64,000 bases of DNA, taken from positions 186,001 to 250,000 of the forward strand of contig PALG01000029.1 in assembly GCA_002707025.1 (NCBI GenBank), read 5' to 3'. Both the position numbers and the translations under genes were made by a program. This document shows, in pieces, positions 43,658 through 60,643 of this stretch (positions are counted from its first letter, which is position 1; each line of letters starts with the position of its first letter). Below the pieces are notes generated by a model. It made no database searches and was not told the origin of the DNA. It saw only the letters and a list, made by a program, of their open reading frames with translations. The DNA is from Flavobacteriaceae bacterium. Its GTDB lineage: Bacteria > Bacteroidota > Bacteroidia > Flavobacteriales > Flavobacteriaceae.

Positions 43658-45085
43658 ATGAGTAAAACTGCCGAAACAGTTTGGAGCAATTGTTTGTCCT
43701 TTATTGAAGATAATATATCGACACAAGCTTACAAAACTTGGTTTGAGCCCATTAAGGCAGTAAAACTCAATGAAAACGCCCTTAGCATACAAGTTCCCAG
43801 CAAGTTTTTTTACGAATGGCTAGAGGAGCATTATGTGAAGTTATTAAAAGTTGCCCTAACCAAAGAATTAGGAACACAGGCCAAATTGGTGTACATCATT
43901 AAAATGGAGAACACCTATGGCAACAAACAACCCTTTACGGAAAAAATCCCCAGTTCCAACAGAAGCCAGGTAAAAGACCAAGAAGTTGATGTTCCCATTA
44001 AAAACAAAAGCCCCGAGCTAAAAAACCCTTTTGTAATCCCGGGAATCCGTAATGTAAAAATTGAGTCGCAACTCAATCCCAATTACAGTTTCGATAATTT
44101 TCTGGAAGGCGAATCCAATCGTTTGGCAAGATCGGCAGGTTATGCCGTAGCCAATAAGCCCGGAGGCACTTCCTTTAACCCCTTATTGATTTTTGGAGGA
44201 GTTGGTTTAGGGAAAACCCACCTCGCCCATGCTATTGGGGTGGAGATTAAGGAAAAATATCCAGAAAAGACCGTTTTATATATTTCCGCGGAAAAATTTA
44301 CACAACAGTACATCGAATCGGTAAAAAAGAACAACCGGAATGATTTCATCCATTTTTACCAAATTATCGACGTGCTTATAGTAGATGATATTCAGTTGCT
44401 TTCGGGGAAAGCAGGAACCCAAGATGTGTTTTTCCATATCTTTAACCACTTGCACCAAAATGGGAAACAGGTCATACTTACCAGCGATAAAGCACCGGTA
44501 GACATGATCGATATTGAACAACGTTTGTTATCCCGTTTTAAGTGGGGGCTTTCCGCAGAATTGAATCACCCAGATTACGACACCCGTGTGGCGATTATTA
44601 AAAATAAGCTTTACCGCGACGGAGTTGAAATGCCCGAAGACATCATCGAGTTTTTGGCCAATAATATCAAAACCAACATCAGGGAGCTGGAAGGCGCTAT
44701 TATTTCATTAATTGCGCATTCGTCTTTCAACAAAAGGGAAATTACGATAGACCTTGCCAAAAAGATTGTTGACAATTACGTTAAACACACCAAGCGCGAA
44801 GTCTCCATAGATTACATTCAAAAAGTAGTAAGTGAATACTTCCAGATGGATGTAGAAACCCTTCAGTCTAAAACCCGTAAAAGACATATTGTACAAGCTA
44901 GGCAACTGGCCATGTTCTTTGCCAAAAAATTCACTAAAGCTTCTTTGGCTTCTATTGGATCGCAAATTGGACAAAGGGACCATGCTACTGTATTACACGC
45001 ATGCAAAACCGTAGACAATCTTTCCAGTACCGATAAACAGTTTCGAAAGTATGTTGACGATCTCAATAAAAAATTAACACTATAA
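43658..45085 (+). CDS. dnaA: Chromosomal replication initiator DnaA
   Basis: 475 residues. Domain I about 1-80 (ETVWSNCLSFIEDNI), variable linker, AAA+ domain with Walker A FGGVGLGKTHLAHAIG and Walker B VLIVDDIQLLSGK, then domain IV with the DnaA signature IGSQIGQRDHATVLHACKTV, which contacts the DnaA box. It initiates chromosome replication. Stands alone, with its own terminator; the origin itself is not identified here. Confidence 0.97.
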   Translation: MSKTAETVWSNCLSFIEDNISTQAYKTWFEPIKAVKLNENALSIQVPSKFFYEWLEEHYVKLLKVALTKELGTQAKLVYIIKMENTYGNKQPFTEKIPSSNRSQVKDQEVDVPIKNKSPELKNPFVIPGIRNVKIESQLNPNYSFDNFLEGESNRLARSAGYAVANKPGGTSFNPLLIFGGVGLGKTHLAHAIGVEIKEKYPEKTVLYISAEKFTQQYIESVKKNNRNDFIHFYQIIDVLIVDDIQLLSGKAGTQDVFFHIFNHLHQNGKQVILTSDKAPVDMIDIEQRLLSRFKWGLSAELNHPDYDTRVAIIKNKLYRDGVEMPEDIIEFLANNIKTNIRELEGAIISLIAHSSFNKREITIDLAKKIVDNYVKHTKREVSIDYIQKVVSEYFQMDVETLQSKTRKRHIVQARQLAMFFAKKFTKASLASIGSQIGQRDHATVLHACKTVDNLSSTDKQFRKYVDDLNKKLTL

Positions 45086-57870: not shown

Positions 57871-58365
57871 ATGGATCACTTAACAAAACTGGAAGAGCTT
57901 CTGGATCAAGCTAATTTGGACATCAAAAATGGCCTCTACGATGAAGCGACCAACAAATTGGAAAAGATACTGGATATCGATTCCAACTTCGGAAAGGCTT
58001 ATAATCATTTAGGGTACCTATATGAAGTAAAGTTCAAGGACTTTGAAAAGGGGGAAACTTTGTACAAGTTGTGTTTGGAGAAATCACCCATGTACCCAAG
58101 TGTGTATTACAATTACGCCATTTTACTTTCCACGTTGGGAAAATGGAATGAGCTAAAAGAATTACTGGATCAAGCCATGACCGTTCCAGGTATCACCAAA
58201 TCCACTATTTATAACGAGTACGCTATTATGTACGAGCAACAAGGAATGTTGGAGGAAGCCATAGAACATTACCGTAAGGCAGGACTGAACACTTTGGACA
58301 AAGGTGTCTTGGAAAGGGCAAAAGCGTCTATAGAACGTTGTAAGATGAAGAAAGAATTGTTTTAA
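57871..58365 (+). CDS. Tetratricopeptide-repeat protein
   Basis: 164 residues, about four TPR units ([78 protein letters not shown]). Cytosolic, no signal peptide. Overlaps trmD by one base (TAATG), so it is co-transcribed and coupled with trmD. It probably acts as a scaffold for a partner that cannot be named from sequence. Confidence 0.85.
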
Positions 58366-59042
58366 TGCGTATAGATATTATTACCGTACTTCCCGAACTT
58401 TTAGAAAGTCCTTTTGAAGCTTCCATTTTAAAAAGAGCGATTGAAAAAGGATTGGTAGAAGTACATTTTCACAACCTTCGCGACTATTCTTCCAATAAAT
58501 ACAAACAAATCGATGACTACCAGTTTGGTGGGGGTGCCGGAATGGTCATGATGATTGAACCCATTGATAAGTGTATTTCACAATTAAAAGCGGAAAGGGA
58601 ATACGATGAAATTATTTACATGACCCCAGATGGAAGCACGTTGAATCAAAATAGGGCCAACGAACTTTCCCTCAAGGGAAACCTCATGATTTTATGTGGT
58701 CACTATAAAGGAGTAGACCAAAGAGTTCGGGATCATTTCATTACCAAAGAAATTTCCGTGGGCGATTTTGTATTGAGCGGTGGTGAATTGGCAGCCGCTG
58801 TCCTCTGCGACTCCATTATCCGTTTAATCCCTGGGGTCCTCAATAATGAAACCAGTGCCTTAACCGATTCGTTTCAGGACAATCTCCTAGCCCCTCCTAT
58901 CTATACCCGTCCTTCAGAATATAAGGGTTGGAAAGTGCCTGAGATTCTTTTAAGCGGAAACACTCCTAAAATAGAAGCTTGGCGCGAGTCGGAAGCCTTA
59001 AAAAGAACTCAGGAAAGACGTCCCGATTTATTGAATCAATAA
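58365..59042 (+). CDS. trmD: tRNA (guanine-N1)-methyltransferase TrmD
   Basis: 225 residues. Methylates G37 of tRNAs reading CNN codons. The SPOUT trefoil knot is visible: [52 protein letters not shown] and [17 protein letters not shown]. Commonly grouped with rplS, as here (dps lies between). Coupled to the TPR gene. Confidence 0.97.
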
Positions 59043-59135: not shown

Positions 59136-59612
59136 ATGAGCACTTTAAACACCATAGGCCTAGATGCCAAAAAAAGCGAGGAGCTTTCCAATAAGTTAAA
59201 CGACCTATTAGCCAATTATACCTTATTTTATCAAAACGTACGAGGTTACCATTGGAATGTAAAAGGGGAAAATTTTTTTGAATTGCATGTAAAGTTCGAA
59301 GAACTTTACAACAATCTCTTTTTAAAAATCGATGAAATAGCCGAACGGATCCTTACGTTGGGGCATACGCCCAATCATAAATCTTCAGAATACCTTAAAA
59401 CATCCGAGATTTCAGAAACGAAGGAAGTGAATGACGGGTTTAAAGCGGTGGCCAATATTTTAAACGCTTTACAAACACTGCTAACCAAACAAAGAGTGAT
59501 TCTAAACCTCTCAGGGGAAATTGATGATGAGGGAACCAACTCGATGATGAGTGATTATATTCGGGAACAGGAAAAATTGGTTTGGATGTATTCTGCTTTC
59601 TTAGACAAATAA
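59136..59612 (+). CDS. dps: Dps/ferritin-like DNA-protection protein
   Basis: 158 residues, the standard length. Forms a dodecamer that oxidises and stores iron and protects DNA. The ferroxidase ligands sit in RGYHWNVKGENFFELHVKFEELYN (His and the later Asp/Glu), then DEIAERILTLGHTPNHK. Four-helix bundle intact. Stress-regulated expression is expected; a leader hairpin and weak -7 box precede it. Confidence 0.94.
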   Translation: MSTLNTIGLDAKKSEELSNKLNDLLANYTLFYQNVRGYHWNVKGENFFELHVKFEELYNNLFLKIDEIAERILTLGHTPNHKSSEYLKTSEISETKEVNDGFKAVANILNALQTLLTKQRVILNLSGEIDDEGTNSMMSDYIREQEKLVWMYSAFLDK

Positions 59613-59659: not shown

Positions 59660-59740
59660 TATTTTTGCAACCGATTTGTTCCAACCTCTGGCGAAGTACG
59701 TGAATGTTGTTACAAGCTTAACCATTTTGAAACTGAAACC
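59660..59740 (+). promoter_or_regulatory. rplS promoter and structured leader
   Basis: TATTTTTG -7 box (59660-59667), then a leader of about 66 nt holding a hairpin TTGT-CAAC / GTTG-ACAA (59676-59679, 59682-59685 with 59706-59709, 59712-59715) with a 2x2 internal loop. Ribosomal-protein genes often carry autoregulatory leaders and L19 leaders have been described in flavobacteria as I recall; whether this is one needs a covariance-model search. Confidence 0.5.
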
Positions 59741-60091
59741 ATGGAATCGTTAATTAAATTTGTTCAAGACGAATTCGTAACTAAAAAAGATTTTCCAGAA
59801 TTTTCATCTGGAGACACCATCACTGTATTTTACGAAATCCGTGAAGGTGAAAAAACAAGAACACAGTTCTTTAGAGGAGTTGTGATTCAAGTAAAAGGAA
59901 CAGGACTTACCAAGACCTTTACCATCCGTAAAATGTCTGGAACCGTAGGTGTGGAACGTATTTTCCCAATCAACATGCCTGCATTGCAAAAAGTTGAAAT
60001 CAATAAAAAAGGTAGTGTTCGTAGAAAGCGTATTTATTACTTCAGAGGACTTACCGGTAAAAAAGCAAGAATTAAGGATAGAGCTATCTAG
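59741..60091 (+). CDS. rplS: 50S ribosomal protein L19 (bL19)
   Basis: 116 residues from the ATG at 59741 (MESLIKFVQDEFVTKKDFPE); upstream in-frame codons belong to the leader. The family hallmark GTGLTKTFTIRKMSGTVGVE and VERIFPINMPALQKVEI are followed by the basic tail VRRKRIYYFRGLTGKKARIK. It sits at the interface of the two ribosomal subunits. Followed by its own terminator. Confidence 0.97.
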   Translation: MESLIKFVQDEFVTKKDFPEFSSGDTITVFYEIREGEKTRTQFFRGVVIQVKGTGLTKTFTIRKMSGTVGVERIFPINMPALQKVEINKKGSVRRKRIYYFRGLTGKKARIKDRAI

Positions 60092-60112: not shown

Positions 60113-60143
60113 CAAAGGCGGTTCCATAAGGGCCGCCTTTTTT
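60113..60143 (+). terminator. Rho-independent terminator of rplS
   Basis: Stem AAAGGCGG/CCGCCTTT with an 11-nt loop, followed by a T-run. Confidence 0.85.
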
Positions 60144-60155
60144 ATTGACATTTGT

Positions 60156-60184
60156 TAATAACTCAAGTTAAAAAACTGTTATTA
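60156..60184 (+). repeat. Hairpin upstream of the candidate ncRNA
   Basis: TAATAAC pairs with GTTATTA (7 bp, 60156-60162 / 60178-60184), continued inward by AGTT/AACT (4 bp) after a 3-nt bulge, closing an A4 loop. A/T-rich, no strong T-run; could be part of the RNA or an independent element. Confidence 0.4.
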
Positions 60185-60239
60185 TTAAGTTTCCACAAAA
60201 ATTTGCAAAACTCAATTCTTGCATTACATTAGCAATATC

Positions 60240-60545
60240 AAAGTGATTCACCAATCACAGCGATACATAAAGTAACGTTCTTTATCATATTCTTTTGACA
60301 GTTGTTTTAAAACGCTTAGCCCGTAGTGGTGTAAGCGAACAGATTGGAAAAAGAAGAGTGGGTCTTTAAGAAGCAAATTGATTGATATCGATATACTTTC
60401 AGAAAAGATATAAAAACCACTCATTTGAAACAAATCACAGCCGCAGGGGTATAATAAACCTGTCCTAGAATTGTAACGATTGGCTGGTAACGATGTGTTT
60501 CACAAGAAGCCATATCAGTGTAGCAATACCGTGATATGGCTTTTC
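60240..60545 (+). ncRNA. Candidate structured non-coding RNA between rplS and icd
   Basis: A 578-bp gap holds no credible ORF but a chain of inverted repeats: GTGATT/AATCAC (60243-60258), ATAAAG/CTTTAT (about 60267-60285), CGCTTA/TAAGCG (around 60313-60337) and GAGTGG/CCACTC spanning about 70 nt (around 60356-60422). The direct repeat AATCACAGC occurs at 60253 and 60433. The 3' end is a 10-bp terminator stem AGCCATATCA/TGATATGGCT (60508-60517 / 60532-60541) followed by TTTTCTT. It lacks tmRNA, RNase P and SRP signatures. A 6S-like RNA is one possibility; the 5' end is uncertain. Confidence 0.55.
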
Positions 60546-60547
60546 TT
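60508..60547 (+). terminator. Rho-independent terminator of the candidate ncRNA
   Basis: Perfect 10-bp stem AGCCATATCA/TGATATGGCT (60508-60517 / 60532-60541), 14-nt loop, then TTTCTT. It is 366 bp past the rplS terminator, so it implies a separate transcript. Confidence 0.85.
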
Positions 60548-60588
60548 GGTTTTAGGCATTCTTTTTCATTTTCTTAAAGCCCGTTTTC

Positions 60589-60643
60589 TTGAAACCTAGG
60601 GTTCTATTCCGTATATTTGCTAGCCTTCGTTTTATTGAAGGCT
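60589..60643 (+). promoter_or_regulatory. icd promoter with 5'-terminal hairpin
   Basis: TTG (60589-60591), 20 nt, then TATATTTG (60612-60619): a full Bacteroidota promoter. Start of transcription is predicted near 60624, at a hairpin AGCCTTC/GAAGGCT (60622-60628 / 60637-60643) with 8-nt loop, followed by TTATTGTTTTTT, which resembles an intrinsic terminator. A 5'-end stabiliser or attenuator before icd is plausible. Confidence 0.55.

Follow-up and report, generated by a model that had tools for sequence, protein, structure and literature searches.

The window analysed here, a 64,000-nucleotide stretch of Flavobacteriaceae DNA, has a gap of 578 bp between the stop codon of rplS (60091) and the ATG of icd (60670). 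Does this gap hold a gene of its own, and if so, what kind of product would that gene make? A preliminary description of the same DNA had proposed a dedicated structured non-coding RNA (ncRNA) of about 300-400 nt and had raised a 6S-like RNA as one possibility.

Coding potential and transcription signals of the gap

No credible ORF is present in the 578-bp gap, as had been stated in the preliminary description, and no plus-strand ORF is widely common to 35 relatives, among which 393 of the 528 gap runs are not multiples of three. A protein gene on either strand was rejected on the strength of this indel pattern and of the missing common plus-strand ORF. Some minus-strand ORFs have a common start column, and that column is a conserved RNA stem.

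Promoters of Bacteroidetes have the consensus TTTG at -33 and TAnnTTTG at -7. The predicted ncRNA promoter (Table 1) matches this consensus and is kept in relatives, while the terminator, correctly set apart from that of rplS in the preliminary description, is among the best-conserved parts of the relatives' alignments. We conclude that there is strong support for the gap being an independent transcription unit, with its own predicted promoter, an RNA of ~313 nt and its own terminator. The regulatory DNA would span 60142-60232, and the boundaries of the RNA are best set at ~60236-60549. Upstream, a Dps/ferritin-like gene (59136-59612, its translation judged by eye) lies between trmD (58365-59042) and rplS and breaks the usual trmD-rplS order.

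Table 1. Features of the rplS-icd region, in window coordinates
Feature	Position	Strand	Remarks
L19-Flavobacteria leader	59682-59709	+	Rfam RF03130, 42 bits; 5' neighbour of rplS, outside the ncRNA
rplS	59741-60091	+	ORF; conserved neighbour upstream of the ncRNA
rplS terminator	60115-60143	+	Stem GGCGG/CCGCC, then a T-run
Upstream DNA element	60142-60190		20-bp near-palindrome TTATTGACATTTGTTAATAA (60142-60161), then GTTNATAA-like repeats; presumed regulator site
Predicted ncRNA promoter, Bacteroidetes type	60202-60232	+	-33 TTTG (60202-60205), 19-bp spacer, -7 TACATTAG (60225-60232)
Structured ncRNA, short form, ~313 nt	60236-60549	+	Start set by the promoter, end by the terminator
P1 hairpin GTGATT/AATCAC	60243-60258	+	Two-sided changes at 4 of 4 counted pairs
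P2 hairpin ATAAAG-UAACGUU-CUUUAT	60267-60285	+	Most conserved segment; common to short and long forms
P3 arm	60290-60355	+	Within- versus between-species pairing, 0/2000; long-form comparison
P4 arm, 67 nt	60356-60422	+	Closed by GAGTGG/CCACTC (60356-60361 with 60417-60422)
P5 domain	60426-60502	+	Closing helix UGAAACA/UGUUUCA; invariant asymmetric loop A/GUAAC; three-way junction with P6 (loop GGUAUAAUAAA) and P7
Intrinsic terminator of the ncRNA	60507-60547	+	Stem AAGCCATATCA (60507-60517) / TGATATGGCTT (60532-60542); conserved in short and long forms
icd -7 element TATATTTG	60612-60619	+	Separate from the ncRNA promoter; conserved in relatives
icd, 741 aa	60670-62895	+	Usual neighbour downstream of the ncRNA

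The palindrome and the direct GTTNATAA repeats that precede the promoter are conserved family-wide, being present in most of the loci read that carry the RNA and mostly missing where the RNA is missing. A regulon-wide operator was rejected, as the 3.05-Mb genome has a single exact match of TTATNRACAWWTGTTNATAA, the one in the rplS-icd gap. A factor presumed to bind the conserved palindrome would regulate transcription of the ncRNA. The same DNA could also be read as a replication origin, with a functional palindrome, DnaA boxes and an RNA fold that is incidental, as suggested by the DnaA-box-like TTATNAACA repeats and by dnaA lying 15.5 kb upstream of the locus. This is extremely improbable, given that compensatory base-pair changes (see below) require an RNA and that GC skew sampled along a complete genome (G268) rules an origin out, its minimum, at ~1.3 Mb, being distant from the locus at 2.23 Mb as well as from dnaA at 0.4 kb. 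The dnaA domain (PF00308) is located at 44072-44557 of the window, and the distance from dnaA to the rplS locus is ~10-40 kb in several genomes and 0.3 to >1 Mb in others.

Fold and covariation of the short form

The RNA strand has a folding energy of -87.7 kcal/mol, compared to a mean of -63.7 (sd 5.0) for dinucleotide shuffles (z -4.8; 0/100). In an alignment of the 3' domain and terminator from 55 species, 19 of 29 pairs show compensatory (two-sided) changes, a value reached by 0/500 shuffles; all five measures beat every one of the 500 shuffles, and pairing falls from 98% to 31-45% once the partners are displaced by 1-3 columns. Across 35 full-length short-form RNAs, compensatory changes are found at 34/56 pairs (0/500 shuffles), again with a collapse when partners are slid. 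The P5 domain has multiple compensatory changes in both alignments, and its P5b helix gives the clearest covariation, with AGC/GCU, AAC/GUU, GAC/GUC, GGU/GCC and GCC/GGC all seen. The GAGTGG/CCACTC stem, described earlier as closing an arm of ~70 nt, is real and covaries, with GAATACA/TGTATTC and GAGCG/CGCTC among the relatives' versions.

For arms whose alignment is uncertain, we compared the pairing of strands within and between species, a column-independent test. For P3 (-9.5 vs -5.0 kcal/mol), P4 (-7.6 vs -5.2) and the P5 closing helix (-7.1 vs -5.4), a 5' strand pairs more strongly with the 3' strand of its own species than with the 3' strands of the others, with 0/2000 permutations in each case. 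Judging from the size and spread of the covariation, and with controls that remove relatedness only partly, there is little doubt that the fold of the rplS-icd RNA is selected. One element of the preliminary description did not hold up: the 9-nt direct repeat AATCACAGC occurs twice in the window only (0/34 relatives) and is attributable to chance, some repeated 9-mer being found in 82/200 shuffles of the segment.

Distribution and synteny

A DNA search with the gap gave matches in 76/299 Flavobacteriaceae genomes, nearly all of those examined being downstream of rplS. A pattern for the 3' domain matched 44 named contigs, including those of Altibacter lentus, Ulvibacter litoralis, Aequorivita, Marixanthomonas spongiae, Marinirhabdus gelatinilytica, Cochleicola gelatinilyticus, Aureitalea, Halomarinibacterium sedimenti and Pukyongia; rplS precedes the RNA on the same strand in every contig that extends far enough, and icd follows it in most. 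The short form is that of the window's own lineage, near Altibacter, Ulvibacter, Aequorivita and Marixanthomonas. A model of the 3' domain matched 152/395 Flavobacteriaceae genomes at E <= 0.001, ~35 of them strongly and the others weakly and partly due to the terminator stem, with the weak matches almost always located downstream of rplS; in order- and class-level samples it had no match outside the family. The P2 pattern was found in 193/329 Flavobacteriaceae genomes versus 57/286 in the class sample, which has considerable background, and its exact form AAAGTAACGTTCTTTA occurs once outside Flavobacteriaceae among the class-sample matches listed. Taken across the RNA loci, same-strand rplS is upstream in nearly all wherever the contig reaches. 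Four genomes of the large genus g142 (probably Flavobacterium, judging by its size) and some other genera have a short rplS-icd gap without the RNA, which is also absent from the rplS-icd loci read in other families of the order.

This synteny, together with the covariation and the RNA's own promoter and terminator, bears out the dedicated structured ncRNA of the preliminary description, now placed at ~60236-60549. It also raises the question of whether the RNA belongs to icd, as a 5' UTR acting as a leader or attenuator in cis whose terminator is conditionally read through. Same-strand icd does follow in most loci, but this explanation is improbable. A separate icd promoter (TATATTTG) lies 3' of the ncRNA terminator, and linkage to icd is not obligate: nine loci keep the RNA with icd absent from the downstream stretch examined, and in L019/L107 and L075 icd is ~1 kb further off. 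An RNA that is kept at loci from which icd has moved away or is missing would not work on icd in cis, and a cis-regulatory leader was rejected on this loss of linkage. In three of the nine loci, the aligned sequence downstream of the RNA resembles by eye the beginning of a gene for an ABC-transporter ATPase.

A longer form in other genera

The loci of the weakly matching genomes have the upstream palindrome, the promoter, the P2 hairpin (AAAGUAACGUUCUUU) and the terminator as in the short form, with a predicted transcript of ~430-500 nt versus ~313 nt. An end-to-end alignment of 22 such long-form RNAs contains 123 pairs in 22 helices, with 94% of cells paired and two-sided changes at 69 pairs; 0/500 shuffles reach the observed covariation, which collapses when partners are slid. 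Long stretches are near-invariant (e.g., AUCAAGAAAAACAA and GUCAAUACAUUUUGA), and GNRA tetraloops cap hairpins whose stems covary (CAUGAAAAUG, CGUGAAAACG, CACGCAAGUG), with C-GAAA-G in 19/22. Conserved GNRA tetraloops may be read as a sign that the long form is packed through tertiary contacts.

The two forms have in common the P2 hairpin, the P3 base, the closing P5 helix and the terminator. In the short form the P3 base closes a small hairpin, and in the long form an additional domain of >200 nt lies inside it; the RNA of the window is therefore a compact variant of a larger one. In its central part the short form is unalignable with the long form, and homology there would have to be argued from synteny, from the DNA element upstream, from P2 and the position of P5, and from the terminator. 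The P6 loop GGUAUAAUAAA belongs to the short form only, and has no counterpart sequence in the long form. Six marine flavobacterial MAGs have a short-form 3' domain ~680-730 nt from rplS, a distance which suggests a third, longer architecture.

Search for known RNA families

With Rfam 15, the L19 leader was the sole match in the window and in two sets of 20 loci, one of short-form or near loci, the other of divergent ones. A permissive scan returned only sub-threshold noise for the gap, and for one long form a best match of 19.9 bits (E 0.39). OLE, ROOL, GOLLD, raiA or any other Rfam 15 family was rejected on the lack of an Rfam match for the window or its relatives. The preliminary description had noted that tmRNA, RNase P and SRP signatures were absent, and this holds: ARAGORN found no tmRNA in the window and the gap has no Rfam match, so that a tmRNA or SRP RNA was rejected, while the single RNase P RNA match of the genome (RF00010, class A, 186 bits) is on another contig (C20), outside the window. 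The 6S-like RNA raised there, a regulator of RNA polymerase, would suit the size class and the flavobacterial location of the RNA, but is very improbable. The genome's 6S-Flavo RNA (107 bits) is on contig C11, the gap has no match to RF01685 (for which at least 85 bits are needed) at the gathering threshold or at E up to 10, and the rplS-icd RNA is without a single long hairpin with a central bubble. Because 6S and RNase P RNA are both encoded elsewhere in this genome, the ncRNA is neither of them.

The RNA has the attributes of large structured ('ornate') ncRNAs, namely many covarying helices, no coding capacity and a stand-alone gene. Our literature search found no report naming it, and an unnamed entry in the 2017 catalogue of 224 motifs or in supplementary tables is possible. 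We rate it as a putative undescribed family within a known kind of molecule; an RNA found in the same place across many genera, with no family in public catalogues, is probably an undescribed bacterial RNA machine or regulator.

Proposed explanation

We suggest, with a probability of roughly 60%, that the gap encodes a dedicated structured ncRNA of an undescribed family, spread across much of the Flavobacteriaceae and anchored between rplS and icd, and that this is a compact, trans-acting RNA, probably protein-bound. Sequence comparison establishes predicted transcription signals, a fold of at least five arms under strong compensatory selection, synteny and a larger form of 22 helices. Tertiary contacts would hold the ncRNA in a compact shape, in which it would act in trans, probably with bound protein in the manner of an RNP or a scaffold, rather than as a simple antisense RNA. 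The combination of invariant loops and variable stems would fit an RNA recognised by its shape or by a protein.

The main rival to such a compact trans-acting RNA is base-pairing regulation of mRNAs, in which the fold of a trans-acting sRNA merely displays one or more single-stranded seeds (e.g., the P6 loop GGUAUAAUAAA or the P2 loop UAACGUU). The loop sequences are indeed conserved, and there is a precedent in Rfp18 of F. psychrophilum, a structured, conserved sRNA that is needed for normal protease mRNA levels and is predicted to pair with protease mRNAs through one stem-loop (PMC9723704). Nevertheless, we consider this unlikely, as the rplS-icd RNA is much larger and more elaborate than typical sRNAs of this type, and as its long form has 22 helices that covary and lacks the P6 loop sequence.

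Returning to the compact trans-acting RNA, almost all of 64 sequences compared carry ACGU, a self-complementary core, in the P2 loop, which, as speculation, would permit a kissing dimer. A bolder and more doubtful possibility, put forward tentatively, is that of a new class of large tertiary-structured RNA, an RNA-only or RNA-protein machine that may be homo-oligomeric via this ACGU core.

Comparison with known systems

Bacteria have few large structured RNAs, most of the understood ones being ribozymes, RNP cores or unusual RNA assemblies. Many genera of a major marine family of polymer degraders carry the rplS-icd RNA as a fixed gene of the chromosome, its address often constant, which makes it deletable and open to study in cultivable strains. 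With the alignments, the covariance model and a defined promoter in hand, its function is directly testable.

Like 6S-Flavo (RF01685), it is a stand-alone ncRNA of Flavobacteria; unlike it, it is found at another locus, 6S-Flavo having 108 positions and matching nothing in the gap, either by sequence or by structure. The L19-Flavobacteria leader (RF03130; PMC7247131) is a structured RNA of the same locus and adjoins the rplS-icd RNA, but is a 29-nt cis leader upstream of rplS and independent of it. Flavobacterial RNA-seq studies report sRNAs without Rfam matches (PMC9723704, PMC5395568). Rfp18 and other independently transcribed sRNAs of F. psychrophilum are likewise structured flavobacterial sRNAs without an earlier family (PMC9723704); they differ in that their conservation is mainly within the genus Flavobacterium, whereas the sampled g142 genomes are without the rplS-icd RNA. 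OLE, ROOL, GOLLD and raiA are large, elaborately folded bacterial RNAs with poorly understood functions (PMC12286853). They have other hosts and genomic settings, and neither form of the rplS-icd RNA matches them in Rfam. The likeness lies in a large, elaborate fold found by covariation, with a long form that nears their size. By analogy, the rplS-icd RNA would work like the OLE/ROOL/GOLLD group without belonging to it.
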